A stretch of 40,691 bases of DNA from Perkinsus chesapeaki. Its lineage: Eukaryota > Perkinsozoa > Perkinsida > Perkinsidae. Below the pieces are notes generated by a model, which was not told the DNA's origin, ran no database searches, and saw only the letters and a program-made list of their open reading frames with translations. Each line of letters starts with the position of its first letter. Within the stretch, counting starts at the first letter, position 1. The position numbers were made by a program, and so were the translations under genes. Of this stretch, positions 7,898-26,200 are shown piece by piece. The DNA is taken from NCBI GenBank assembly GCA_013115145.1, contig JAAPAO010000310.1:1-40691 (forward strand), read 5' to 3'.

Positions 7898-10800
7898 ATG
7901 CTACTGACGTGGTTCTAACGCAATGCTCGGAGAGCTCCAAGGGACAGCTCTGGCACAGAGGGAATCGCGATGGGAAGAAATGCTGCTCAGGCTTCCGGTA
8001 AGGGAGATATTTGTACCGACAATTTCAATTAAAAAAATCGCTGGAGTTCGGGTTTTGACGGGCTTGCCTCCCCGGACTGTACGCTGTTCATTATTCAGCA
8101 GCTATCCTTTATGGATCGATGAGCAAATATGAGAATTTGATAGACCTGCGTCGTGGTTGTCAGGAACTGGAACACGGATCAGTGCATATCGGCTGGGGGC
8201 CTCGGAGATGGGTTGAAGACTTACACGTGTAGCACCTACGGTGAATTCTGGGATCAATGGATCAAGCTGGATAATAAACAACTGTAAGGAAAAATGAAAA
8301 ACTTAATTATTTCCATGTGACTCTTTGGGGGTCTTCAACTGCATGCGGAAAAGATTTTTTTGGTCGCCTAGATCGACTGGGCAGGATTATTAAATTGTGA
8401 TTTAGATGGTCGTCGGCCCACAGCCAAGGCGAAGTGCATTTTTTTCTGAAAGCTCTTCATGTTTTTTTCAAAAATGCTCGGTGTTAAGTGCGGCTTTTCT
8501 CTGCCGTTTTATAGCGATATTTATCTGCCCTCGCGGAAGGTGCTCCTCAAAGATCAGATATTGCTCTCAGGATTTATTAGAGATTCCTGAACATGTCTCT
8601 AGAGGAGCCAAGAAAGCGTCGAATTTCGTATTCCTTCTGGGAAATTATGTCTCCCTGGTCTCCACATCGTTGATAACCTTTGTTGTTGTTGTTGTTGCTG
8701 TTGTTGAATCCTTTTCGCTTTTTTAGGAAATTATATTCTCAAAATCCTCGTGGTCGGAGTGGCTGCATCGGTGCTGAGCGAGAAAAAGGCGCTGAGGTCA
8801 CGATTGAGGACTGCGGCGTTCCCGGCTACAGACAAAGCTTCAGGGTGGGTATCTTTGCGCACTCGAAAGATTTTACAAGCGGCGTATCTTAGGTTGACCG
8901 GGAAACTGGAGGAATTATTGAAGTTGGCTCCGGTGAATGCCTTACTGCATCTCACGACCATTTTGAGTTGCTGCCCTGCGAGATCGACCCTGAATCGGGC
9001 AAGGTGAGCCCAGTCATGATTAATTTAGCGCGCGCCCGGGTGATCGATTGTACCAGGATACCGGTGTAGTAGTGATCGACGTCATTTTTTGTACACGGTC
9101 GGATATAGTCACGGCAGCGGTTATAGGTCGATGCGTCTCTAATGGCCAACGTCTATAAGATTTTTATATTGCGACTATAGTAAGATTCAGAAGTGAAGCG
9201 AATGTGAAACTGTCATAGGCTCCTAGTGTTTTCTAAGTGATAGACGAAACATGAACAGTGAAACGGCCAGTGATGGAATCGATCACCTGATCGATATGCG
9301 TTCAGGTTTTCGGTGAACAAGCCATCACCTTCACGGAGTTGAAGAGCAATCGATATCAACTTCGAGCCAGCGAAGTGGGGGAAGTGCCGCTTTGCGCGGA
9401 CAGTTCATCTGGAACGAAATTAGTTCTTTACTCGTGTTACAACCCAAAGGTAGGACTTTGACGTAAAAAGCGCGCGCCCAGTTGATCGATTAGATGAGAA
9501 ACAATAATCAAGAATGGGAGTTCCTGGAAAGGTTTTCTGATTTGGGATCGAATATCAAGTTTGGTGGGACGAAGTGTATGTCGGTTTTAGCTGGTGCGAA
9601 GACAACTCGGAAGGTAGGTATACAATCGATCACGTGATCGATTATGTGTATCAGGTATTCTACGACACTTGTGTGACTAATAATGGACTCCCCAAACCGG
9701 GTCAAAGGTTTGAGAAGGATTATTCAGGTAAATCGATTGCGCGATCGATTTGTATTTTTTTCTAGATTCTAAGTCTGAATTCGCCTTGCGGGACGGTAAC
9801 TGGTGTTTGGATGTAAATGAGGAAGGAGGAGTCCAAGTAGGGAGAATTTTTCCACTGGAAAAATTCATTTCTAAAATTTATACTTTTTTGCAATACTTGT
9901 AACGTATTCTGTTATTTTTTGCCTTTCTTCTATGGTCTGTTTCCTTGCTATTGCGGGAACAATTCCGATCTTTTGAAATTCAAGAATTCAATCCTTACGA
10001 TTTCTTTGCTCCATGGGTGCCAAGTTTCGAGTAATCGATCACGCGATCGATTATCGTATGAGGATGTGTTGATCAGGTTGCCTCTTGTGATGGCTCCAGC
10101 TCACAAAAATGGCGGAGCGAAGCTGATCAAATTTCCGCTCTCGTGAACATCGAAACTTCGATGTGCCTACAGGGAGACAAGGATGGTGATTTATCTATGT
10201 AAGCAGGTTGAATGACCGCGCGCCACGAAATATAAGCATTAGGCGATTGATAAGAGCGTATTGTTTTTTGCAAGATTTTGTGGCGCGCAAGAATGTGCAT
10301 TCAGTGTTTTTTCATGGGAAAAGTTTTGGGAATTTTCATTTTCCAGGTCATCATGCTCGTTTTCGCCTGGAGATTCTCAAAGATGGAATCTGGCTGAAAA
10401 CCTTGTTAGAGGCGGTGAGGAGGATGCGTGTATCGATTACAAACCGGTAAGATTATTAACTATTAATTATTTATGAACTATTAATTATATATCAATTATT
10501 AATTATTTATCAACTATTAATTATATATCAACTATTAATTATATATCAATTATTAATTATTTATCAACTATTAATTATATATTAACTATTAATTATATAT
10601 TAACTATTAATTATTTATCAACTATTAATTATGTTTTGACTATTAATTGTTTATCAACTATTAGTTATATATCAACTATTAATTATTTATTAACTATTAG
10701 TTATTTATTATTTTTCAATTATCAACAATTAGATCCACTTTCTCTTCAGGCATTCCCGTGAGAAACCTCTTAAGAAATGTTAATATTTTTTTGACGTTTA

Positions 10801-11101
10801 ATACTAGTTTCATAGTTCTCATCGAGAATTAATTTCGTGGCGCGGTGAAAAAGCATTATTATTGTTAGGTCCGAACGACACCGTTAAGCGTTGTCTCATG
10901 CCCTCGAGCAAGATCAATTAAATGGAGCATATATGAACCATTCGTAATAGCTAATGTTCGATATCGATCACGTGATCGATTTGGTTTTAGGAGCCTTTGG
11001 AGACTAGGTTGTACCGCGAGGCTCGCGGAAAATACCCGAAATTGCTTGCAGGAGAGGTTTCCCATACAGACGCTCCCGAAGGGAATATTATTGAAGTATA
11101 A
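7898..11101 (+). CDS. Multi-repeat ricin-B/beta-trefoil lectin protein, 5' partial
   Basis: Exons are 7898-7997, 8164-8283, 8727-8844, 8893-9003, 9306-9449, 9494-9613, 9655-9727, 9766-9836, 10077-10198, 10347-10446 and 10991-11101. Intron phases agree at every junction and give about 395 codons to a TAA stop. The protein is a chain of carbohydrate-binding-type repeats. Signature pieces, in order, are DVVLTQC..GQLW, DQCISAGG..YTC..DQW, SGCIGA..VTIEDC..RQSF, SGECLTA, LCADSSSGTKLVLYSC..NQEW, KCMSV..YDTC..QRF, WCLDVNEEGGVQVASCDGS, SQKW, SMCLQGDKDG and SPGDSQRWN..DACIDY. That gives at least seven QxW/F-type units, or two to three trefoils. Known family members bind glycans. No catalytic domain is visible in the recovered part, so the role is unknown. 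The last exon lacks lectin motifs, and an alternative final exon is possible at 11651-11707. The initiator exon and any signal peptide were not found. Confidence 0.85.
8681..8706 (+). repeat. TTG microsatellite in lectin intron
   Basis: A short run of TTG units with one CTG lies in the intron 8284-8726, close to its acceptor. No function is suggested. Confidence 0.8.
9277..9296. repeat. Intronic palindrome, degenerate copy
   Basis: ATCGAT arms surround CACCTG inside the 302-nt lectin intron 9004-9305, ten bases before the acceptor. This is a one-base variant of the perfect 20-mer at 9624-9643. Confidence 0.75.
9624..9643. repeat. Intronic palindrome AATCGATCACGTGATCGATT
   Basis: This perfect 20-bp palindrome lies inside the 41-nt lectin intron 9614-9654, ten bases after the donor and eleven before the acceptor. 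In RNA it could fold and bring the splice sites together. The identical 20-mer occurs at 14106-14125 in a DDB1 intron. Confidence 0.9.
9730..9751. repeat. Intronic palindrome, centre variant
   Basis: Arms AAATCGAT and ATCGATTT surround TGCGCG inside the 38-nt lectin intron 9728-9765. The left arm begins two bases after the start of the GT donor. This is the shortest intron in the reconstructed genes. Confidence 0.85.
10032..10053. repeat. Intronic palindrome, centre variant
   Basis: Arms TAATCGAT and ATCGATTA surround CACGCG in the 240-nt lectin intron 9837-10076. Confidence 0.85.
10218..10288. repeat. Intronic inverted repeat GCGCGCCACGAAAT
   Basis: The arm at 10218-10231 pairs with ATTTTGTGGCGCGC at 10275-10288. 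The only mismatch would be a G-U pair in RNA. The 43-nt loop and both arms lie inside the 148-nt lectin intron 10199-10346. The arm sequence recurs at 10831, 11109, 17095 and 17301. Confidence 0.8.
10452..10729. repeat. AT-rich 18-bp minisatellite in lectin intron
   Basis: About 15 units of roughly AACTATTAATTATTTATC are arranged in tandem inside the intron 10447-10990. Variation is mostly TATATATC versus TATTTATC. It contributes most of that intron's length. Confidence 0.9.
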
Positions 11102-11126
11102 TAATCCGTCACTGCGCCACAAAATT
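10831..11126. repeat. 18-bp inverted repeats around the lectin's terminal exon
   Basis: AATTTCGTGGCGCGGTGA at 10831-10848 faces TCACTGCGCCACAAAATT at 11109-11126, with two mismatches. The interval of 296 bp encloses the palindrome at 10963-10980 and the candidate last exon 10991-11101. The arms belong to the same family as those in introns of this gene and of DDB1. Confidence 0.65.
10963..10980. repeat. Intronic palindrome ATCGATCACGTGATCGAT
   Basis: This perfect 18-bp palindrome ends ten bases before the last lectin exon (10991). Its core is identical to the 20-mers at 9624 and 14106. Confidence 0.9.
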
Positions 11127-12967
11127 CCTGTGTTTCTTATTGTTATAACTTACTGTGTGTATAAGAGTTGATAATAGAACAGTGTTGTGTTGAGTCAAAT
11201 AGATCACTCGATCGATTTTGAGAATCTTGTAGATTTATTTTTTTACAAATTTTCATTTTAACCCGAAAAGTGTTGTCTGTCCCAATGACACAATTATTGT
11301 CCCTTCATATGTTTGACTTTATTGTTTCGTATCGCAATATCGGTAACCAGTTGAGTGACTACAGCAATCGAATGAGATTTCTAACCTTTATATTTTGCTA
11401 AGATCCTTAAGTAAGAAAGTCTTACTTTTTGTAAATAATGAAGTTGTTATCTGTCAAAAAAATCGGTGATCCTAATAACCTGTATTTATTTTTGATGTAT
11501 CTTTGGGAATTATAACACCTTCTGAAAGATATGAAACGGTTGATCGATTTGTCGTTTCCCGTGTTAGTAGTATTTCTCAAATATGTTTCAACGTTCGCAA
11601 CCACTTTTCCGTGCGAGAAGAATAAATAAATTAGTTTCTAACATTTACAGGCGGAAGTGGACGAGAGTTTCGCGGTATTTCACAAACAGGGACAGAACAG
11701 CTATTGAACAGAAGAAGATGTGGGCGGTAAGATTCGAGGGAAGAGCGGTATGAAATCCTACAGGATTTAGATGAAAGAGGGGTATGAAATCCTATAGCAT
11801 TTAAGTATCTTCCGGCTTCCGTAGCTCAAATCTGACAGACTTGTTCGCCGAATCGCTATAAGAAATACAGTCTTCAATACTGACTTACGATCGATGGAAT
11901 ACCTGTCGGCGTCCTTCACTGCGCCCTATGGGGTTCTCCAACGAGTTCTCATTAAAAATACAAGTTTTGGTGATGGAAAATGTAAAAAATTACGGAAATT
12001 TCCTAGAAATTTTCTGTAAAAATTAAATGTCTCTTTGCCATCTTTCTCATCAACGTGGATATCGGAAATTATCTGGTGATGATTTTGTTGAAAAATCGTA
12101 GAAATTTCGGAGATGTTTTTGTCTTACTCTTTCCAATAAATTTTGCGACTGGTAATTTGTCCTTATGGGCCGGTCTCATTTTCTCCGTTAACCGAGGGAA
12201 CGGAATCTGTCAGATTCTCATACGGCAACCTTTCGTGTGCACGAGATTTCTCCGGCCGTCTCACTTAACGCCTTATGGCTACTCGAGACTACCTCGCTCG
12301 GAAATAGACGAGAAAAAATACGAGGAGAAATTCTGTGACATGAGCCGGTAAGGACATGCCGCATGCGAGGATCGAACCTGCGACCTTAGGCTCCACAGGC
12401 AAGATGAAGAACGGTTTGGACTGTCTCCGACGATTATGCGGGCGTTGGCGGCGAGCGGGTTGAGGCAGCCGCCGCTGAGGTCACATTGACATGTTTGATT
12501 GAGTTTCAGCGGTTTCAGAGAGAGTCGTGCGAAAACAGTTTTTAAATTAGTATTTTTGGGCTCAATTCGTTGGGATGGTTTTGTTTCAGGTAATAGAAAA
12601 GCTCCAAAGGGGAGGAATGTGGCTTAATGGAGGAAGATTCACGCGCCCAGATATTAATGTTATCAGTTTCATGACAGATATAAATACTTAGTGATGAAAC
12701 GGTTGATCGATTTGTCCTTCGGGTTCTGACTTTGTTCATTCCACTCGACGCTCGGGTTAGCTTGGCCTTTGCCGACCGTGTCTAGATGGCAGTGTCAAAT
12801 TCAATCCTGTCAACACAATCATTTTCGAAAGCAAACGGCAACGAAATCGGAATCTCGTCGGTAGACTTTTGGTAACATGGCGATCGCAGACTTGGTAGGG
12901 CACCAAATCGCACTAGATACTCTCTCCATAGGGGAACGTGTTCCACGTGTTTGAAATTAGACCCTCA
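11102..12967. other. Intergenic: palindrome halves and a 23-bp direct repeat
   Basis: No complete gene is supported between the lectin gene and DDB1. The stretch holds a degenerate palindrome copy at about 11200-11219 and an identical 23-mer (starting ATGAAACGGTTGATCGATTT) at 11531-11553 and 12694-12716. A minus-strand tRNA-like box B lies near 12366-12380. An AG at 12959-12960 just before the DDB1 start could be a cis- or trans-splice acceptor. Confidence 0.5.
11651..11707 (+). CDS. Possible alternative last exon of the lectin gene
   Basis: After a TTTACAG acceptor the frame reads AEVDESFAVFHKQGQNSY and stops. It is in phase with splicing from a GTATAA donor at 11096, which would remove the two final codons of the exon ending at 11101. 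The donor is unusual, so the stop at 11099-11101 may be the real end. Confidence 0.3.
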   Translation, partial: AEVDESFAVFHKQGQNSY

Positions 12968-15900
12968 ATGCCATCCTCGTCATCACCTTCGCCGGTTTCC
13001 AGCCCCGATGAGGAGATGCGAGCATCATCATCATCCACTGAGGCGTCAAGTCCATCGGGATTCTACGTCTCAACGTTACAGCCGGCAACTGCTGTGGTTT
13101 CTGCGAGGTCAATTCTGGATGGGAAGTATCTAGTCGTTGCTAGAATCACAGAGAGGGTAAGGAAAAATAGTTTTATCTTTCGGAAGGGGGTGCTCATCAC
13201 AGCTGAAATTTAAATACATTATTATTATTGATATCGGTTGTCAAGAAATCGTTTTGGAAAAATCACATTTTCTTAATTTCTTGAGTTAATCGCTTTGTTT
13301 GCTTTGTAGCTCAGTAGTCGGTGGATTACCAATGGTGATGGTCTTAAAAGAGCCCCTCCACAGTAGACCGCAAATACGTAATGTATCCGGAGTTGAGATT
13401 TGTAGAACACCGGGGTTGCTCCTTGCAATACATCCCCGGAGCAACGATCGCGATCGTAGGATAGATACGCTGGTCCCGGTGCCTGCGATCTAGTAAATGG
13501 AAGAAATCGAAATCCGCGCTGGTTTTCACATATGCCTTTACGTGGGAGCACCGAGCTGTTAATCTCGGTGGTAAGCTAGCAGTGCTGCTGCACTGCCAGG
13601 CCGATTGGCAAGCAGCTCAGCCCTGGTACTAATCGATATGCTTCTACCCTGGCCGAAAGTATATCGCTCGTGCTTGAGTTGCAAAGATTTCATGTGGTGC
13701 TATTACACGTGCATGCGCTTACACGATCTTCAAACTCTGTCATGTTCAGATACAGATTTTCGGACCTTTTATTGGTGACACAATACTCGACGGTGAGGAG
13801 GAGGAGGAAGAGGTAGGTTATTGTAAGATTCCATCTCGGCCAATCGGTTGAGTTCATCAGACCCGTCGTGTGATGAGGGACGGACCCCTTCTGGAGTTTC
13901 CTGTGATGGCGAGAATCGTTTCGATGGAAGTTGTGCAGGAGTAAGTTTTTTTGTAAAGATTCTTCCGCGAAATATTTTTAGCAATTTGATTTTCTTCACG
14001 ACCGCCAAGAGGCAATTTGGACTTTGGCGGTTCACTGCGGAACCGACAAACCTCGAGGTCATCGGATCTGGGAAGCTGAGCAACTTATATGTAAGCGAAT
14101 CGCTCAATCGATCACGTGATCGATTTTCTCATTTAGCCATATCCAGCGACTGACAGTTCTCTCCGAGCATGTCACATTGTCGCCTACAATGACAAGACTG
14201 GACTCATTGCGGTGAGTATGTTTATCCGACGGAATATTTCACAGTAAATTCACAACTGGGAACAAACGATCGATACAATCCACTGTGTCACGAGTACTTG
14301 CTTGCATTTAATTTTTGTATTTGCATTCCTACTCTTACCATCCGGGCCTGTGGGGCGGGAATGGTTACGGTGAACTTCAGAATCGGTTGGAATGTTTCAA
14401 TCCCTTCTAAATTGCAGTCTCTATGGTAGCAGCTGACCTGAGATATTGTGAGCTCGACTCGAAGGCGCTTGTTCTCTATCTCGGGGAGCAAAAGCTGGAT
14501 GGTTCCAAATGGGAAATTTACATTAATGCGAAGAAGCTGGGAAATGTTGGTCGTGAAATAATATTATAATTCATCGTACTATGCTTTCGCTGTATGAGTA
14601 TGCGTTATAACTTCACATCGTATAGGTACATCTCTTCCGTGGCCAATTGTTTGTTCTCGATCTCAATAGTACTGAGAACTCGGCACCATTAGCAGGTCAA
14701 GCTCTCAGGATGGATACCGTCCCAGAGGTGCGTTGTCTGTGGAGTATTCCGATACCTGCGACCAGGGGCCATAGATGTTTCGTCAGCTGATCCTACGGGG
14801 TGTAAAGATCACGATGATCATGACTGTGATGAGATTTTCGCTCGCCCAGCTAAAATTTCTTCATCGTTTGTCATTTTCCTCATTTACTCTGTTGTTGTAT
14901 TGGGATTGAACATCGTATGCAGATTGTAATGAACCTCATCATTGGAGTCAGAATCGTGAAGTTTGGGGATCATTCTTATACAAGTCGCGAGAAGCGAATT
15001 TTTCGGTTGCTATTTTATTCGCCTTCTCAGGCAATTGACATGTGTTTTCTACCAACTGAAGGGGACGACAGGAGAATCACTTTGGCGGTGAGCATTGGGG
15101 TGTTGTCTCGATATGCGGATGCTGCTCCGGGGGGGATGACGAAATTATAAAGGGTGTCTCATAACTACTTTTCATACGCTTTTGAATGATAGTTTCTCGT
15201 CAACCAGAAGTGTTTGAAAATGAAGGTATAAAGGTGTCTCAGAATTATACTGGCGGAGTTTCACACCAGCACTCGCCCTCTGGCCTCCACACGAGCCCTG
15301 TGCGTGAAAATTTTTCGGGAGGTCAAAAACTCGGAAATTTTGACCCAATTTTTACCTAATTTCCGGAAACCCTTTACATACTGAAAAAGAAATCGCAGGC
15401 AAGCCGCTCTGGCTGCTGAGGTTGTGTTGCTCACTGTAGTTTGGAAGAGCCCGCATCTTTTAACGAGTCGGGACCCGAGACTTACTCGGTTCGAAAACCC
15501 TTATCATCAGAAGGGTATCTTATATTTGTGAGAGCGTTGCGGAGAATGCGGTATGAGAACAATGTTCTCCTCGTAACGCCGGTGCAGAGGCGAATTGAGT
15601 GCTGATTTTTGTTATACTAAGCTTCACTTGGAGCAGTGTGTGTGCTGGGAGATAGTCAGAATATATTAATAAGAATAATAATGGTAGCGTTCGGACAACA
15701 CTAACAGTCCTTATCAGAATACGGAGCTGTGAAGGCGTAATGGAACTGTTCCTGTATGATCTTGTAGCGACCAATTATCACAACAACGCAACACACACAG
15801 CTAAATTAAAGATTCACCGCAATCACGCTACTTGCAGGCTGATTATAATTGTACTAGCTTCAAGCTAAGATACCATCATGAAAGGGGACGAGGGGAAGTC

Positions 15901-16921
15901 ATCACGCTCAGACTTTAGCTTGTAGGTTCTGTACAGCAAGGAGCCGCTAGCCTATGAGCTCGAGGTGGCATTCTTCATTCTTGATATGGATAGGAAAACT
16001 CTGGAGACGGTATGCCCACGTTGGTCTATATTTCACATTGTTTTACTAGGCACCTCTTGACACCCATCCTCGGATCGATGTGACTAACCGAGGCACCCAA
16101 AGGATACTTCCGTTGTCTTATAACGAGCTCATTGCGATCGGTATGTCTGCCATGGTTTCACAGTTTTGATTACTCATCGTGGGTTCTGTGGGCGGTTGGC
16201 TAAGTTAGACTGACACCGATCAACTTCAAGGAGCGTGACCAACCCGATTGTCTCTGAGAGTTATGTGATTTTATGTGACAAAACATCGCACTCATCAATT
16301 GAATATCTTAGGTTGATGCTTGAAACTTGCATTTCATATATCATCCATCTTGTACTGGGCTATACATGACCTAATCGATCGCTACAGCTTTTCATTCCGG
16401 CTAGATCGAGCGCATTTACTCTTTCAGGCCCCAGAACTGTTACTCGGTACATGGTAAATCAACCCATGGATGAAACTGATAGTCCGATTGTCGGCGAGAT
16501 AACGACCAAGAATCTGGGAAAGGTAGGCTTGGTTTCCGTAACAAGTGGGGCAAGCCGGAGAAGTTGGTATTCACCTTTTTCGGTTGGAGCTCAGCCCTTC
16601 CTGGGGATCCAGTTATAATGGTGTATACCAGGCTTCAGTCTACTATTTATGCAATGAGCTTTCTGGTCATTTTAAGTGAGTTCGACTACCAAACTCAAGC
16701 CAGTGATGTGTCTCTTACTGGCAGCGGATCGAAAATGGCAATAAGATAGAAAATTGTGGTTCCGAGAATCTTGCGTCAAACTCCTCCGACTCAGTGCCAG
16801 TCACTGAGACGTCGTAATGAAATGCCCCGCCCTTCTTTGCGTAGGTGACAGTTGGATTATCGAAGGGAGATGACAAATGGTTCGTGGTCGACGAAGAGGG
16901 ATGGCTGCACGTCATTAAAGG
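12968..16921 (+). other. DDB1: DDB1 exon block A: first beta-propeller
   Basis: Exons are 12968-13156, 13756-13812, 13861-13940, 13982-14090, 14137-14211, 14626-14727, 15031-15087, 15926-16009, 16050-16140, 16428-16522 and 16845-16921. All have GT-AG borders and compatible phases. The block contains an acidic loop of six glutamates at 13795-13812 and ends in DEEGWLHVIK. Four introns are 40-48 nt long. The intron 14091-14136 consists mostly of the 20-bp palindrome. The intron 14212-14625 holds an extra minus-strand open frame. Confidence 0.88.
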
Positions 16922-19900
16922 GTGAGATAGTATCAGTCGAGGGAAGTTTTCGGAAGAATAATTTTTGTTATTTCCTGACTTCCTCCATATCTCCCTAGAT
17001 TGCCTGTATAGAGGAGATAAGTAAATGCTCTGCAGTTTATGGGTATTAGTCATACTCTTATAATACAAACTTTACATTATAAAGTATGGGCTACCGTCAC
17101 GCGCCACGAAACTATGTGGTGGTCCGGATCCTTGTTAGTATTGATAGCGTATTGGCCCTCAGTAAGTTTCATTTCAACACACGCAGGATTGAGTGTTCGG
17201 CCCTCGCCCGAAAATGGAAGGGGACTATTCGAAGACATTTTAGAAAAATGTCGTGACTGAAATGAGGTCTTACACGAGCCCTACATCAACGCTTATCTTT
17301 CGTCACGCGCCACAAAATTAGGGGCCGTTTAGGGCAGTTCTTATTACTGATATCTTCTTGACCTTCATCGAGTTTCATTCCGAAACACAAAAGTATTGAG
17401 TGATTTCTGAGCGATTAAAGTCACTTACGAAGTCTTGGAACATCCTTTACGGCTTTTATTAGAATAATGTGCGGTGTACAGTGTTATCACCAGCGATGGT
17501 TATTACCCAATTTGGTGTTAATATTAGTAATTGCATTTATACTGTCGAGCACTCCTCCGGCCAGGTTGATGATAGCAAGTATAGGGGTATCGCTGTGGTA
17601 GCGGGTTCAGTCAGTTGTCATAATCTCCTGAGCTTTGGTAAAATTGCCAAATTGTTACCATAAGGTCGAATATTAGGGTTCTCAATTCCTCAACTTTTGG
17701 GAAATGTTTTCAGAAAATGATTCCTCCCTTTCCCAGGTTTCCCCAGAGTGGCTGCATTCGATCTTCCCTGTCAGTCTAGGAGTATATTTTCCGTCAAAAT
17801 CTCCGCTTTAGTGCGGCTTCCTTATCCCCGACTAACATATTTCTGTGTTATATCACTTCCTGTTTTACCTGTAAATTTCAGAGGCTCCTCGGCACCCAAA
17901 GATGACGTAGCTCCCCATTTTTACACAGCTGAGGGGAACGGTGGCCAAAGTGCATCTGGCAAGCGCCGACGGGGATCATCGACCCGAAAGCAAACCCGAG
18001 GGAAGTCAACCAGAACTGTGGAGGCGGAAAATAGGAACCGTTGCGGCCTGGACTTCGACGTGAGTCAACATTAGTAGTTATTTCCGATCCCTGTGTGCCA
18101 GACGCTCGGGCCGGTTTCGAGTGGGGCGAGCTCGGCGCTGGCGGTTCTTTTGGATGGAAGACTTATTTTCGTGGCGAGTGACTGTGGGGATGCGCACCGA
18201 CTTTGCACGGTTTCGGTGGGTTGAAATGTGGATGTGTTGGTCGATTGGTGTTTTCTGTCAGTCGGAGGCGTACACTGATACGGAATCATTTGTGAAAACA
18301 ATGTAAGCTACTTCTACTCGCTGGCATCTTCACATTGGAGATAAATGCGCGGAAGAGAGGGCGTCGACGTTTGTTTTGGAAATGGCATCGAAAACCCGAA
18401 AACCCGATTTAAACCCGAAAACCAAAATCTTCAGAAACCCGAAAACCGATTATTGAGAATGATTGTTTTCAGCTACGCGGAGCTCTCGCTTTCACCGATA
18501 ATAGACTTCCAGTTGCGCAGCGGAAACCAAGATGAGCTGATCATGGTCACTGGCCGGGACGAGTCATCATATGTAAGCTCGGGGAAGTGGCGGCGGGGGC
18601 GGGGGGGAATATACGGTAGACAGTTGCCTTACGGTCCTCTTACGTTTAACAGACATGCTGAAGGGAGATAATCAGAACAAGATTCAGATAGCGCGACATG
18701 AATCGTTTTTGGAACAACAAATTCGCATATGTGGCCCTCAATCAGTGAAGAGCCAGAAAATCTTGATCTGATCTCCGCCGGAGCAGAGAGTTTGAAAAGT
18801 TTGTGTTCGAAGTCATCGACTAGTTCTACTTCTTTGAGAAAGACCCTCTGGCAGTGCGGCTCCTGAAGTTCGTGGGTATTACTATTGAGCTCATTGCTCA
18901 AAGCGCCTGTGTGGTATATAGTACGTCATGCATAACGCAGATGTAGGAAGTCTTCACGGGGCGTTGATAGTGCATCGATATCCGTAGCAGACTCAGCACC
19001 CTGGAGAATGGCTCTTATTGAAGGCTTCCTTTGCCTTGACGCCCAGTCGACCATTGTTGTTTTCAGATTCGTTCCATGAGACTTGGCTTGTCACTGAGAG
19101 AGCTAGCTCGAGTGCGATGTGATGCCCCTGCGGATGTATGGAGCATTAGTACTCCTGGAAGTCGGCCACTACTGGTAAGGATGTTCCAGAACATACATCC
19201 TGTACTCTATACTCTATTATAGAGTCTCTATACTCTAGTATACTCTATACTCTATACTCTAGTATACTCTAGTATACTCTAGTATACTCTAATATACTCT
19301 AGTATACTCTAGTATACTCTATACTCTAGTATACTCTAGTATACTCTAGTATACTCTAATATACTCTAGTATACTCTAGTATACTAGTATNNNNNNNNNN
19401 NNNNNNNNNNNNNNNNNNNNNNNNNNNNNNNNNNNNNNNNNNNNNNNNNNNNNNNNNNNNNNNNNNNNNNNNNNNNNNNNNNNNNNNNNNNNNNNNNNNN
19501 NNNNNNNNNNNNNNNNNNNNNNNNNNNNNNNNNNNNNNNNNNNNNNNNNNNNNNNNNNNNNNNNNNNNNNNNNNNNNNNNNNNNNNNNNNNNNNNNNNNN
19601 NNNNNNNNNNNNNNNNNNNNNNNNNNNNNNNNNNNNNNNNNNNNNNNNNNNNNNNNNNNNNNNNACTTATACTCTAGTATACTCTATACTCTAGTATACT
19701 CTAGTATACTCTATACTCTAGTATACTCTAGTATACTCTAGTATACTCTAGTATACTCTATACTCTAGTATACTCTATACTCTAGTATACTCTAGTATAC
19801 TCTAGTATACTCTATACTCTAGTATAATCTAGTATACTCTAGTATACTCTATACTCTAGTATACTCTAGTATACTCTATACTCTAGTATACTCTAGTATA

Positions 19901-22900
19901 CTCTATACTCCCCACTGTATTCACAAATGGATGCGGTTGGCAATGGATATTCAGGGATATTCCTATATTATCCATTGTCAATCCATTGTCAAGTCCTATA
20001 ATAGGACCTTTTGGAAATGAGCTCAACACCAGTACTTGTTAAATTATGTACATGCGGAAGTGTCTGTTATTATCCTAAGGTTGTTCATACTGCGCAAAAG
20101 CACTGTGGGTTTGGCAGGTACAGTCATTCGCCACGACCACAGTGGTGTATGGCTTCCTCACCATTGAGGACGATAATCGAACCGAGCTGAGTTAATCTCC
20201 CGGAACTCTGCAGCGTACGAACTCTATCTTCGCTTTTAGTTCCGATTGACTTCACCGGCAAGTTCGTCTCGGCACCGTCGCTTTGGTGCGGCTGCGTTGG
20301 TGGACTAGCAGTCCAAGTTACGGAGCGAACGGTGAGCTGTGCTTCTGTCGTGTGTTGTCCGACTAACATGTGCTCTTTCGGCTCGAGTCTTTGGTCTAGC
20401 GTTCATTACCACCACGTCTCCCTCCTAGCACTGGTACGTCACCCGCCAGGCCGACAATACCTCGTTAAATCTATACGGGCCACGTAGTGATCCGCAGCTG
20501 GAGTGGCGTACGTTTGTATCGTTTACAAGCTGTTGACATTCGAAGCCCAGCTGCTTCATCACCGATAAAACTCTAATCCGTTCCGGAACAGGATCGTCCT
20601 CGGCAACAGTTTTACGGTGGGACCTCCATCTTGAGTTATATTGCGAGATATATCCATGATAAATTATATTATTTAACTTTTATTATACATTTATATATAT
20701 AGAACAGCGAGGCATTGGTTGCTATTCGGTTGTCCCGAACCTCACAGAGACCAGGCTATGATTATATATTATATATATTATTTAAAATATTCGAACTTTC
20801 AAGTGAATGCTTGGTTGTTATCTATATCAGATAAGATTCATCGATGCCAAGTCGACTCCCCCAGTGCTGGTCTCCTCTGTGGATGTAGAGAACGCTGAAG
20901 CCTTCGTGACGGCCGATGGAGATAAAGATATTTTGTTCACTGTTAGCAGGAAAGGTGCCGATCGGTCGTCGAGTACACGCATCATGCCTTTTTCAGGGAA
21001 AGTGTTCTCGCATGAAGTGAACACGAAAACTCGCGCCATTCGATCTGAGGAAGTTCAACTGGACAGGTAAGGTTTCTACGGTCGAGCTCTGGTTACCTCA
21101 GTTCACCTATCAGGCCTGCGCTCGGTGCTTCGTGCATGTCGTATAAGACAAATTCGGGCGTTTTGGCGATTGGCTTGTGGCCATCAATTGGGAAGATAAA
21201 CTCCAAGCGGACGATTGTTGTAAAGCAAATGAAGGGTGGCGCGGAGAGAGAACTGAATGTAGGTTCTTCTGCTACTCTTGTCAGCTTTAGTTAACGTCGG
21301 ATGAATGAAGGACCGCCTGATTTTTGGAGGAGGCTCTTGAACGATGGTGGCGCTGAATAATTGTATTCTTACCGTTTCCTTCTTTGTGAATATGGGATTG
21401 AAGATATCCTATATTCCGACTTGCAGGTTGGATTCAAGGATGACTCTTCATTTTTGAATTTATAATCGGGCAAGCCACTGCCGATGCAATTGTTGTTCCT
21501 TCTATCAGGTCCCTTCCGATTCTTCAAAGTCAGGGACTTTGGTGCCAAGGTCGGTTATCCACTTTGTTGGAGTTATGATATCCTCTCTTATCAGATCGGT
21601 TGTAGTGTGCTCAGCTGGGGAACTGGGCCTCTCCGGCGCGCCGGAATCTGTGCTGATTCTGTGCGGCTTTGATGATGGTCGACTTTTTATTTTCTCACTC
21701 GACGACACCGGCTCTGCTCAGGTGAATTCGGTCGGATTTTGCTAATCGTCATTGAGGCATTTCAGGAGATAAATCTCGGAGGCGTGCGGCCAGTGATGCT
21801 TTCGAGGCTCGCAAGTGTTAACGGAGTGCTCGCTCGAGGTAGGCCACTCCCCCCTGCGGCGGTTGTATCTCATTGGCAGGCACCAATCTTCATTTCGTAA
21901 CTGCCGATTCTAGCGAGTGCGAAATTGTATGTAAGAATGTGAACCCATTGGAAGGGAACTGTCACGTCGAATGTGCTGTTGAATTCGGCGACAATGAGCT
22001 CGTCGCGTCCGAGGAAGGATCAACAGCGTTGCTTGCTCTAGTCACTTCTGAGGTACGAAAGATATCGGTGTTCAAGTTGTAGTGCTTATCATTTAGCCTT
22101 CTTTGGCGTTTGCCTCGCTTACACCAGACGAACCATGTGAGATTCATACAAGACAGAAGGAGATCGGCAATGGTAAGTATTGCGCTGGACGTGAAACTGT
22201 CGTAAAATATTTTTCAGGTCAAACTGGACTCCATGTCGAGCACGTCACAAAAGATCTCTACGCTGTTTCCACAATAACCATGTCCCCCAGAGCGGCCGGG
22301 GAAAAGGAAAATATGTGAGCAGTTGTGGATCCGGGTAACTTGGCGATTCACGTCTTGATCAGAGCAACCAACGGATCGGTATCGAGCACCTCGTCTGTGG
22401 TAGCCTGGCGAAGCGCTGTTGTGTGTTTTTACTACTCGTGTTCAGCGTCTTGTGATCGGATCAAGTTTGAGGGAAGTTTGTGTAATACCAGCTGACGAAG
22501 TGGATAGTGGAGTTGACGAGGCATCCTCTATTGAGGTAAGATCTACTCATTTTGCACAAGTCGACATTTTCGTAAACTAACGTATAAATACGCTTATGAT
22601 AAGCAATCCAAATCAAGTGAATTGCTTCGGGTAACCCGAATCGAGTTTGAAGTGATCAAGTGCCGTAAGCGTTGCGGATCGCAAAGCTGAATGGCAACGC
22701 GAATCTTATGCTCATATAACTCTCGATACTGTTGGGAGGCAACACCAGCGAATGGACTGTTAATATTAATTTAGTTTTTCACGGGTTTTAACGTTCGCTT
22801 CATATGGGGTCACCTTTCAGGTTTCGTCCTTGGCGACCATTTCCGCCGATGATTCTGAAGACAGCGGCGTGGCGTAGGTCCGATTTTGTATGTTTGGTGA

Positions 22901-25900
22901 TTATTTCCGAGCTGATAGGTATCTTTGTGTCGGCTCGTGTGTGGTACCGGGGACGCCTGAACCACCTGAAGTTGATGAGTCGGAGCCATCTAAAGGATTT
23001 GTTAAGATCTACAAAGTTGATGTGAGCCCTCCAGGGAACGTTTAAATGTACCTGGTTTGTTTGTCAGCCAACGGCGATGCTCCGTGGGGAATCGGATGGC
23101 AGATTATGCGAACGTGTTGCCATCGCCGAAGTTGAGGGTGTTCCATATCAGATTGGAATGTTGAAAGACGCCAATGGCCGAAAGTTTCTCTTGTGTGAGT
23201 TGCCTTTATCTACTTCCTCAATCCTGCGTAAGAGGTTCCCTAACCCCACATAGGAATCATTCGACAACATATATGAAAGGTTGATTGTCTTTCCTCAATG
23301 CACTTTGTATAATCACATAGAGCGGTTCCCCAACGTTCGCCAGCTGTGGTAGATAGGGTGGTCTGACGCTTCCACCCATCTGTGGCCCTCAACTCATTGC
23401 TTCCCTAAAATGCTCTCATCGGCTTCTGTTACCAATTCCAGTAACTCGTCAAGCCCCACAGTTAAGCTCTTCTCGAAGCCTTAAAATGCTCCCGATACGC
23501 ATCCTGCGTCTCCACAGTATCGTGAACCAAGTTACCGACACTATTACAACTGTATAGCAGCCAGAATTTGTCTCCAGTGCTGCTCGCAAATAGAGGTTGC
23601 AGTGATACAGTACCATTTGACATGCAATCCGCCAAGTCGAGCTGAATGCGTTGTGGCACTTTCGAATCGAAATTGCCATTCGCCCTACGTCTACTGTGGC
23701 CCAGGGTCTTATGTGGTGAGATCTTGAGATATGTTGCCCTTTTCATGCTTGAGCTGCACTTGTGCGATATATGCCGCGGTCGAGACTCGTGACGTGTCTC
23801 CCGTCTCCCCTGCGTAATTGCCCAGTAGTGCAGCCCCCCCATATGTCTGCTTGGTCTTCATCATCCGCAGCCATCTCCTTCGGAGAAACGACTGACGATA
23901 CTGCTGCTGCTGCTGTTCACACCCTACTGAAATCTCTCGAGTCCATCATTGTCACTGCTGCTATAGCGCTCTCTGACTTGGGAAAAGACTCGAGCAACGA
24001 CCTTTGGCGGAAGCTCGCCGAAGCTTCACCTTCTCAAGGGCACAGCTCTGGTCGTCATAAAATATCGACGAATCCTCCGCTCCACCATCACTCGTGCAGC
24101 GTCTACAGTCTCTTCCGGGGGGGGCTCTACTCCATTCTCTCCCAGCTTTGACTCCTTCTCAGCCGCTGCTCCCTTGTCTAGAAGGAGACTTAGCTTCCTA
24201 CGTAGACCTCTACTTTACTCCACATCAAACTACTGCCTCAACAAATAGGGTGCTCCAGCCCTATCACACGTTGCTGTTGAGTAACTGAGCGCATGCCCTT
24301 TAATAGGAAATATTCGACTGGATATGTTTCTAAAGCGAAAGGGAACATCAAATGAGAGAATGCTAGAGATATTCAACCCTACTGATTGACTCGGATATTT
24401 CTTCTGGATTGTTGTAGAGGTCTTTTATATCGTATAATGCTATTCAGGTACTATTAATAACGTATTGGAGGTTTACGCTGTAGAGCGCGCTGCTGATGGA
24501 GATATGAGGCTTGGCTTAGTCACCAAACGACATCTGCACGTTGCATCCATCTTCATGCAGATTCAGGGGTGAGTGCAGCTTTTAGCAGAGTTAACTTCCA
24601 GAGCAATTCAGGAGCAACGTTGCAGTTGGCGACATGACCCGGGGGGTGTCTTTACTTCATTTTGACTCGAAGGTTTCAGCTATTACCGAACTTGGTAAGC
24701 TGCACTCTCGATCTCTTCTATCTTTTTCTGAATTTGTCTCTGAGTTATCTTATCGATGTGCGTTGGGCATAAGGTGCCGATAAGCTTCCTCTTGCCATCA
24801 TTATAAGGTCCATCCGTTCCAGCGACTGTTTCATTTATTTTCGGGTTTTCGGGTTTCACTTAGTCCATGGTGGCTAACTCCTTAAGCGTATATCCCTTCC
24901 AACAGGGAATACAGCTACGGTGTACCCTTAATCGAGGGTTTATATTTTCGCGGGTACGCGGATGGGCGATTAACCAGTTTTGTCGTGCACTATCTGCGCA
25001 CAACTGATGTGATCTTTATCAGCTCGATATGAATTCTCAATGTGGCCCACTGCATTACATTTCCTATCAACTGGAGAGATACTGGTGACGGATGATAAGA
25101 TGAATCTTTTTATGCTTGGAAAGTGAGTCACTCGAGCGTTATTGAAATTAGTTTGTTTGCCAGGCAAAAGGACATCGGCAGAAATGGGTCGAAGGAAGCA
25201 TTCTCTCTCCAGGTTTGTCTTTCGTGCATGAAATTCTTTATACGTTCTGTGTGTCAGACTATGAGTCAATTCCATCTTGGACTCACAGTCAACTCTATCA
25301 AATCTGGTAGCATAAAGCCTTCAATATCGAGCAACAGTGCAATAAATCGAGAGCAGGTGGGTTGGTATTGAAATAATCGTATATGCTCGTGCGCACACGC
25401 ACTTCGAGATGGGTACCGAAAAATCTTGTCCGTAATGTAATGCTTGTCCCCGTGTTGGGATATATTAAATGCGGTTGCGCACATATGTTAGCAAAGATAA
25501 TAGGAAAGGAAAGATAAATCTTGTTAGGAAAGATAGATTTACAGAATTCCGGTAGAATCGTGCATTTTTCAACGGCATCGATTTGTCATTTCGATTTGGT
25601 GAGTAATTTCCCATGCCCAACAGAGGTGGGACTCCCCCCGTGGGAGATAGTTTTGCACTGGGGCCTTTCTGGCAGGGTAGTTTATATTGACGAGAGGCAC
25701 CACAAGCGCTGGTGACTGAAAACAGGCAAGCCCACAAATCCTCGACTGTTTTCAGTACCTAATTTGTTCTACTGAGGGTGCACTGGTCATGCTAACTTGC
25801 CTGGACACGTCTCTTGACATGGCACGTCTATTGCAGATTCAACATGCCATTGAGATTAACATTAACAAACAAAGTAAGAGAGCGCTGGTGCGCGGAGGAC

Positions 25901-26200
25901 TCTTGGGTTAGGCCAAGTAGGTCCTCAGTCCGACGCTCGACTCGACTGGAGGGCTTATCGCTCGATCGACTCGAACCTGATCAGAAGCACTGTGGAACCC
26001 TCTGGGTTTATCGACGGTGATTTACTGCAGCTTTTCTTAGTAACAGAAGATGATGATGATGATATTGCTGTAAGTTATCTTGGTTGTGATATGGTTGTGT
26101 AGTTTTGACGCAGGTGAGGGCGGCTAATACCCTTAATGACGGTACGACCGGCGATGCACTAAAGAAGGAAGTTGAAGAAGTTGTTGAGGCATTCGCATAA
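12968..26200 (+). CDS. DDB1: DDB1 homologue, CUL4 ubiquitin-ligase adaptor
   Basis: This protein would link substrate receptors to CUL4-RING ubiquitin ligases and act in DNA-damage recognition and protein turnover, mainly in the nucleus. About 36 exons give roughly 1,280 residues, compared with 1,140 in human DDB1. Residues follow the family from end to end: FYVSTLQPATAVVSA at the start of the first propeller, NLIFFTTAKRQFGLWRF, LFRGQLFVLDLN, WFVVDEEGWLHVIK, ALAVLLDGRLIFVASDCGD, LAIGLWPSIGKI, LILCGFDDGRLFIFSL, VAVGDMTRGVSLLHF, and PSGFIDGDLLQLFL before the helical end KKEVEEVVEAFA. The ATG at 12968 opens a Ser/Pro/Glu-rich extension of about 30 residues that vertebrate DDB1 lacks. The GFIDGDL block favours DDB1 over the paralogues SF3B3 and CPSF160. 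A stretch of about 60 residues is missing between exons ending at 19174 and starting at 20831. Exon coordinates are given in the four block entries. Confidence 0.93.
14106..14125. repeat. Intronic palindrome AATCGATCACGTGATCGATT
   Basis: This perfect 20-bp palindrome lies inside the 46-nt DDB1 intron 14091-14136. It is base-for-base identical to the one in the lectin intron at 9624-9643, about 4.5 kb away in another gene. Confidence 0.9.
17095..17319. repeat. Direct repeat of CGTCACGCGCCACRAAA units in DDB1 intron
   Basis: The units at 17095-17113 and 17301-17319 share the inverted-repeat family sequence. The roughly 110 bp after each is also similar (AGTTTCATT, ATTGAGTG). The period is 206 bp. 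Both lie in the 960-nt DDB1 intron 16922-17881. Confidence 0.65.
17882..19174 (+). other. DDB1: DDB1 exon block B: linker and second-propeller start
   Basis: Exons are 17882-18059, 18102-18215, 18262-18302, 18473-18572 and 19067-19174. The first encodes an insertion not seen in vertebrate DDB1: about 45 residues rich in Lys, Arg, Ser and Gly (SASGKRRRGSSTRKQTRGKS). It comes just before the strand LDFDTLGPVSSG. It could be a nuclear localisation signal or a disordered loop. Family sequence follows (LSPIIDFQLRSGNQDELIMV, MRLGLSLRELARV). The intron 18303-18472 carries an AACCCGAAAACCCGA repeat at 18390-18450. Confidence 0.87.
19202..19909. repeat. TATACTCTAG tandem array with assembly gap
   Basis: The array consists of 10-bp TATACTCTAG units mixed with shortened TATACTC units. 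It is interrupted by 274 Ns at 19391-19664 and lies inside a DDB1 intron. Array sequence abuts both sides of the gap, so the N length may not be the true length. Confidence 0.95.
20124..20640 (-). pseudogene. Possible retroelement remnant in DDB1 intron
   Basis: Read on the minus strand, about 20640 to 20425 is open with VMKQLGFECQQLV, then GPYRFNEVLSAWRVTYQC and a stop, then EGDVVVMNARPKTRAE. The GPY..VLS...TYQ..VVNAR arrangement recalls the GPY/F module at the end of some LTR-retrotransposon integrases. A second open frame of 81 codons follows to 20124. No integrase core, protease or LTR was found. It lies inside a DDB1 intron and is opposite in orientation to the host gene. The resemblance is by eye only. 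Confidence 0.3.
20831..22535 (+). other. DDB1: DDB1 exon block C: middle and third-propeller start
   Basis: Exons are 20831-21066, 21114-21258, 21509-21721, 21766-21838, 21880-22052, 22097-22172, 22218-22314 and an exon ending at 22535 whose frame is open from 22404 (ALLCVFTTRVQRLVIGSSLR). The join between 22314 and 22404 is not resolved. The phases do not fit unless an earlier donor or a tiny intron is used. Family blocks include AEAFVTADGDKDILFTV, SGVLAIGLWPSIGKI and VLILCGFDDGRLFIFSL. Five of the introns are 41-47 nt. Confidence 0.85.
22821..26200 (+). other. DDB1: DDB1 exon block D: third propeller and C-terminal helices
   Basis: Exons are 22821-22873, 22919-23021, 23068-23194, 24448-24568, 24612-24694, 25023-25122, 25164-25212, 25258-25356, 25545-25598 (tentative), 25756-25873, 25921-26069 and 26114-26200, ending in TAA. 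Key blocks are YLCVGSCVVPGTPEP, INNVLEVYAVERAADGD, SNVAVGDMTRGVSLLHF, GEILVTDDKMNLFMLGK, CSTEGALVMLTCLD, ARLDWRAYRS and PSGFIDGDLLQLFL, with five Asp codons after it. The 25545 exon keeps phase but may be spurious, because the next exon already supplies the expected family strand. Confidence 0.88.
23195..24447. other. Long DDB1 intron with open frames on both strands
   Basis: The flanking DDB1 exons are contiguous in the family alignment (DANGRKFLL then INNVLEVYAV), so this 1,253-bp stretch is intronic. It holds a 129-codon plus frame (23762-24151) and a minus frame of about 126 codons or more (from 23462). Neither is recognised. An insertion or a nested gene is possible. Confidence 0.4.

Follow-up and report, generated by a model that had tools for sequence, protein, structure and literature searches.

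In the 40,691-base contig C236 of Perkinsus chesapeaki (JAAPAO010000310.1; the whole contig is referred to as the window), introns of a lectin gene and of the DDB1 gene downstream of it carry a short palindrome, ATCGAT-N6-ATCGAT (motif A), which recurs throughout the genome set that we searched (884 contigs, 35.4 Mb). Motif A is present in high copy number, its spacing is exact, its arms are conserved around a freer centre, its variation is strand-symmetric, and it is enriched in short introns. The reading we tentatively prefer, at a little short of an even chance, is that motif A is one high-copy, rigid double-stranded DNA site that is read by a putative two-fold symmetric (dimeric) protein and lies mostly in pre-existing introns of about 40–50 nt.

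Genome-wide, motif A occurs 393 times, against 3 occurrences of the reversed-pattern control; its spread through many genes is real. The same arms with a spacer of 5 are found 12 times (control 1) and with a spacer of 7 only 9 times (control 4). Among spacer-6 arm matches, 55 are perfect, 11 carry one mismatch and 19 carry two, where shuffled arms give 0, 0.7 and 10.6. At 60 sites, collected by allowing up to five mismatches at any place in the 22-mer, the arm bases are 97–100% constant and the centre bases 77–93%. On either side, conservation fades over the next two bases and is absent further out, and the palindromy of the flanks past the core plus one base is at chance level; the consensus is about WA-ATCGAT-YRNNYR-ATCGAT-TW. 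No match to the motif A 20-mer was found in viral contigs. Five of the 12 spacer-5 matches belong to a distinct repeat with ATCGAT arms, ATCGATGAGATATCGAT.

All six perfect-arm copies in the window fall within introns: four of these introns are short (38–47 nt), and the other two measure 302 and 240 nt. These introns are those of deposited gene models rather than RNA-seq junctions. The gene upstream of DDB1, FOL47_005644, encodes a P. chesapeaki protein with a ricin-B-lectin domain (P0002); our spliced lectin model is identical to it across the last 387 of 399 aa in an exon-by-exon comparison, a match that requires 10 introns, including 9004–9305, 9450–9493, 9614–9654, 9728–9765, 9837–10076 and 10944–10990. 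DDB1 encodes DNA damage-binding protein 1a (P0001, 1289 aa), which threads exactly on the window. The core 20-mer is identical at 9624–9643 (lectin) and 14106–14125 (DDB1), and variants with up to three mismatches start at 9277, 9731, 10033 and 10962; a degenerate copy starts at 11198. The palindrome sequences and coordinates given in the first-pass annotation, the identical 20-mer included, were correct, and the junctions it proposed (9613/9655, 9727/9766 and 14090/14137) agree with the P0002 and P0001 models. With up to three mismatches, motif A has seven matches in the window and none in 100 dinucleotide shuffles. An origin by chance or composition was rejected on the shuffles and on the 393 to 3 count. 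We give next to no probability to an artefact of composition or assembly, in favour of which nothing was found and against which stand the reversed-pattern count and the unrelated flanks at 136 sites.

The location of the copies was assessed with a home-made and crude gene finder, run on 246.7 kb consisting mostly of site-rich loci and the window; some of the extracted stretches contain N runs. Introns of up to 80 nt, 13.0 kb in total, hold 20 of the 55 motif A copies, as compared with 5 copies in 65 kb of intergenic DNA; the link to introns claimed earlier is real. A further 24 copies lie in longer predicted introns (96 kb) and 6 in predicted exons (73 kb). The gene finder overran gene ends, and several of the six "exonic" sites have plausible GT-AG flanks by eye; they were excluded from the intronic count. 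An early intron test was positive at 16 of 54 sites and 206 of 5000 random places, and a score of splice sites and coding flanks placed 25 of 55 sites above the random 95th percentile. With 80 fresh sites (L031 was omitted for its short flank, and L081 was counted twice for a pair of overlapping sites that share a predicted intron), 44 scored above the random 90th percentile, where 8 are expected, and 34 above the 95th. The median chosen intron length for those 44 is 48 nt, under a score that slightly favours lengths near 46 nt. In calibration, 23 of 28 deposited short introns were recovered, a sensitivity that is optimistic because the training loci include these introns, and the score fires in 25 of 600 long-intron windows and 13 of 391 exon windows. 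After correction for this sensitivity and these firing rates, we estimate that about 65% of motif A sites lie in short introns, the remainder being in longer introns, in intergenic DNA or overlooked by the score. The host introns are of ordinary length and canonical GT-AG. At L013 (416–566), three palindromes, 63 and 69 apart, lie inside 150 bases, in what may be introns or a regulatory stretch.

The changes in the centre are nearly all transitions and are strand-symmetric, as expected of a site read as double-stranded DNA and not of an RNA stem. In 78 scored introns read in the sense direction, centre pairs 1–6 and 2–5 comprise 124 Watson–Crick, 16 G·U, 14 A·C and 2 other combinations (156 pairs). 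An RNA hairpin that aids splicing by drawing the splice sites together would be in keeping with the mid-intron position and with the folding of motif A introns (mean z −2.22, n = 19). However, short introns that lack the palindrome barely fold beyond chance (mean z −0.16 sense and −0.15 antisense, n = 195), and half-sites recur in a non-palindromic motif, B, in either orientation. The spacer, moreover, is rigid (393 copies against 12 and 9), and G·U pairs number 16 to 14 for A·C. We consider the hairpin very unlikely. RNA pairing as the selected trait, one of the two explanations offered in the first-pass annotation, is not supported, given the strand-symmetric centre changes and the rigid spacing.

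Comparison with paralogs shows that, at most of the positions open to such a test, the intron is older than the perfect palindrome. For eight of ten testable motif A introns, a paralog has an intron that matches in position and phase and contains no perfect palindrome. The lectin paralog on contig C478 (L027; 56, 52 and 45% identity over three matched pieces) has introns that match four of five palindrome introns of the lectin gene in position and phase (the remaining one is beyond the extracted stretch), and also one that matches the motif-B intron 9450–9493. The matched L027 introns contain no motif A or B with perfect arms. The L027 intron that matches 9614–9654 is about 650 nt long and contains, at L027 1758–1775, a look-alike with one mismatch and an unchanged spacer; it is possibly an older, since decayed copy, which complicates the simple view that this intron predates the motif. 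For the other two pairs, the names are judged from sequence rather than a family search, and intron lengths are from the crude gene finder. L010/L011, a glycosyltransferase-like pair with 36% identity, has two palindrome introns in its best-aligned part; both are shared in position, and the partner introns hold another repeat, motif C, or nothing. In the NAD-kinase-like pair L005/L006 (37% identical), two of four palindrome introns are shared, one of them opposite a motif-B intron; one miss is at the alignment edge and the other in a 446-nt predicted intron of a doubtful gene model.

These results bear directly on the proposal that the palindrome is an introner element, whose insertion makes a new intron. 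Introners, in families with median lengths of 30–654 nt, are described as one of the leading explanations for episodes of rapid intron gain (PMC9860276). As in those families, some of which are very short, one sequence is repeated in introns of many genes; the strong short-intron enrichment and the several repeat families in introns are also as an introner would have it. In P. chesapeaki, however, the common part is about 22 of a 45-nt intron, splice sites and flanks differ between copies, no clear target duplication is seen, and the introns predate the perfect motif where tested. Amoebophrya, a relative within the alveolates, has introner elements with 8–20 nt inverted repeats inside introns (PMC7789003). 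There the repeats pair the two ends of the intron, the boundaries carry direct repeats and the splice sites are non-canonical, unlike the canonical GT-AG introns with a central palindrome seen here. With eight of ten testable introns shared with paralogs that lack the perfect palindrome, the introner reading of the earlier annotation is very unlikely. A literature search by titles and abstract openings, with the P. chesapeaki genome paper and supplements outside its scope, returned nothing on motif A or on Perkinsus introners.

The main rival is a tiny non-autonomous mobile palindrome, akin to a miniature inverted-repeat transposable element (MITE) or to bacterial repetitive extragenic palindromic (REP) sequences, in which the 22-bp unit is the whole element. 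It would have been recently enzyme-copied into existing introns, which later went back to their preferred length. We hold this to be possible but doubtful. It is consistent with the few intermediates (55 perfect and 11 one-mismatch), the sharp boundaries of the conserved unit and the paralog introns without a perfect copy. It also fits the clustering of copies: among the 125 listed A sites, 47 lie within 2 kb of another A, 29 within 2 kb of a B and 15 within 2 kb of a C, as compared with 1.4–2.6% each if uniform, assuming a 55-kb mean contig and the listed sites through contig 347. On the other hand, the best of 56 offset-length combinations for a target-site duplication gives 7 of 55 sites against 3.4 expected (2-mers), and longer repeats occur at no more than 2 sites. 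At 136 sites no common flank is seen (25-nt flanks average 26% identity, with at most 16 of 25 bases alike) and no longer element, the arms being the inverted repeat and the interior 6 bp. No whole-intron similarity between genes that includes the splice sites was found at these sites, whose flanks are unrelated, and no lengthened host introns were seen. The lack of a clear target duplication, a common flank and intron lengthening speaks against simple insertion, and within the same copies the arms vary far less than the centre. The mobile unit offered in the first-pass annotation is possible, but neither a clear target-site duplication nor a common flank was seen. The finding is broader than first claimed, with spread possible, though not as an intron maker where tested.

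The palindrome half-site, TGATCGATT, occurs 105 times in the 246.7 kb, where 4.0 are expected. It recurs at fixed spacing in motif B, GCGCKCGCCC-N3-TGATCGATT (124 copies, reversed control 0; 6 sense and 3 antisense in introns), and with another partner in motif H, GAAACGGTTGATCGATTT (119 copies, control 0), none of whose six scored occurrences lay in a short intron. Motif H forms local groups at C270 8399–9446, C459 7909–8027 and C354 15694–15775, the last with a 32-base spacing. Table 1 gives the coordinates.

Table 1. Positions of the palindrome, its relatives and their host introns in the window, and of the spacer-5 repeat on other contigs
Feature	Position	Strand	Context
Motif A, centre CACCTG	9277..9296	.	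in 302-nt lectin intron 9004-9305 (P0002 match)
41-nt lectin intron with motif A 9624-9643 (CACGTG)	9614..9654	+	P0002 match
38-nt lectin intron with motif A 9731-9750 (centre TGCGCG)	9728..9765	+	P0002 match
Motif A, centre CACGCG	10033..10052	.	in 240-nt lectin intron 9837-10076 (P0002 match)
47-nt lectin intron with motif A 10962-10981 (CACGTG)	10944..10990	+	P0002 match
46-nt DDB1 intron with motif A 14106-14125 (CACGTG)	14091..14136	+	P0001 threading
Degenerate motif A, one arm mismatch	11198..11217	.	downstream of lectin coding sequence
Motif B	9028..9049	+	within lectin intron 9004-9305 (P0002 match)
Motif B	9470..9491	+	within 44-nt lectin intron 9450-9493 (P0002 match)
Motif H	11533..11550	+	outside both deposited coding models
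Motif H, second copy	12696..12713	+	between lectin and DDB1 coding models
Spacer-5 repeat ATCGATGAGATATCGAT	C43 15724 and 16891; C20 70298; C372 9661; C585 15455

Other repeats share the short introns. Motif C (CTTGCATTTYCTCAACG; 121 copies, control 0) is in the sense orientation in 7 of 8 above-threshold introns (9 scored) and ends 3–5 nt from the acceptor in 5 of 7, and it may carry a branch point. Of the listed occurrences, those in short introns number 15 of 34 for D (a tRNA T-arm), 11 of 23 for E (GTATCTTGCACG...AAGATAC; some counted on both strands), 5 of 16 for F (TTTTGTGGCGC) and 6 of 20 for G (GCGGAGCGAAGC). In L027 (186–224 and 352–402), L022, L024 and others, short introns consist mostly of the T-arm piece GGTTCGANTCC, followed by a T-run adjoining the acceptor; this piece is found in both orientations. 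Short introns selected for a total of 40–50 nt might be refilled with captured DNA (tRNA ends, repeat ends, the palindrome) at deletion or repair of their interiors. Such refilling would suit the T-arm pieces in D introns, the paralogous introns with different fillers or none, and the 64 of 183 predicted 36–60-nt introns outside the window that carry a repeat family, a fraction biased by the choice of loci for motif A. Yet just 1 of 23 short DDB1 introns has a family, no source locus was identified, and captured filler would not retain invariant arms with a free centre. We rate refilling as very unlikely. Something seems to place or keep the palindrome in existing introns. In a wider proposal, which we rate as unlikely, P. 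chesapeaki exchanges a small set of short modules, among them the ATCGAT palindrome, the half-site relative B, a 28-nt module and tRNA-end pieces, within ancient length-locked introns, the position being inherited and the content a changeable DNA-level mark.

The arms, spacing and centre together fit a dimeric DNA-binding site, with a putative binding protein. Such a protein would bind the palindrome as double-stranded DNA, and selection through binding, rather than recent copying, would keep the ATCGAT arms intact while the centre drifts. As a guess, the role would be that of a gene-body chromatin or transcription mark rather than a splicing aid. We rank the binding site ahead of copying because neutral decay would hardly leave arms and centre so unequally conserved in the same copies, and because motifs B and H repeat the half-site at fixed spacing. 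Several points weigh against it. Roughly one third of motif A sites are outside recognisable short introns, and the scarcity of one-mismatch sites (11, to 55 perfect ones) also suits recent copying. A dimer site alone does not explain the preference for short introns over long introns and intergenic DNA, nor the unrelated repeat families in the same short introns, and the protein itself is putative.

Sites of this design have precedents. The bacterial CAP protein, a dimer, binds a site with a free N6 centre, and the fly DREF and BEAF sites have an ATCGAT core. Motif A resembles the former in its conserved arms, fixed spacer and freer centre and the latter in its core, whereas it lies mainly in short introns of a protist and its binding protein is putative. 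Bacterial REP sequences, whose copies are tied to the RAYT transposase, and cyanobacterial HIP1 are likewise high-copy short palindromes in non-coding DNA, although in bacteria rather than a eukaryote. A sequence common to many introns is usually read as the mark of an introner; here paralogs also have the introns, so common intron content is no proof of intron gain. A role as a protein site would make very short introns into addressable DNA positions inside genes; as a mobile unit, the palindrome would be exceptionally small for a eukaryote.

At gathering scores, Rfam gave no match in the window, and its sole match in loci L005, L013, L022, L024 and L027 was one tRNA at the edge of L022. The 39 DDB1 introns (12968–26197) fall into two size classes, 23 of 40–49 nt and 16 of at least 170 nt (170–1253 nt), which suggests strict length control of the short class. 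Finally, an AT-rich tandem-like repeat (around CAACTATTAATTATATAT) occupies 10447–10720, within lectin intron 10447–10868.

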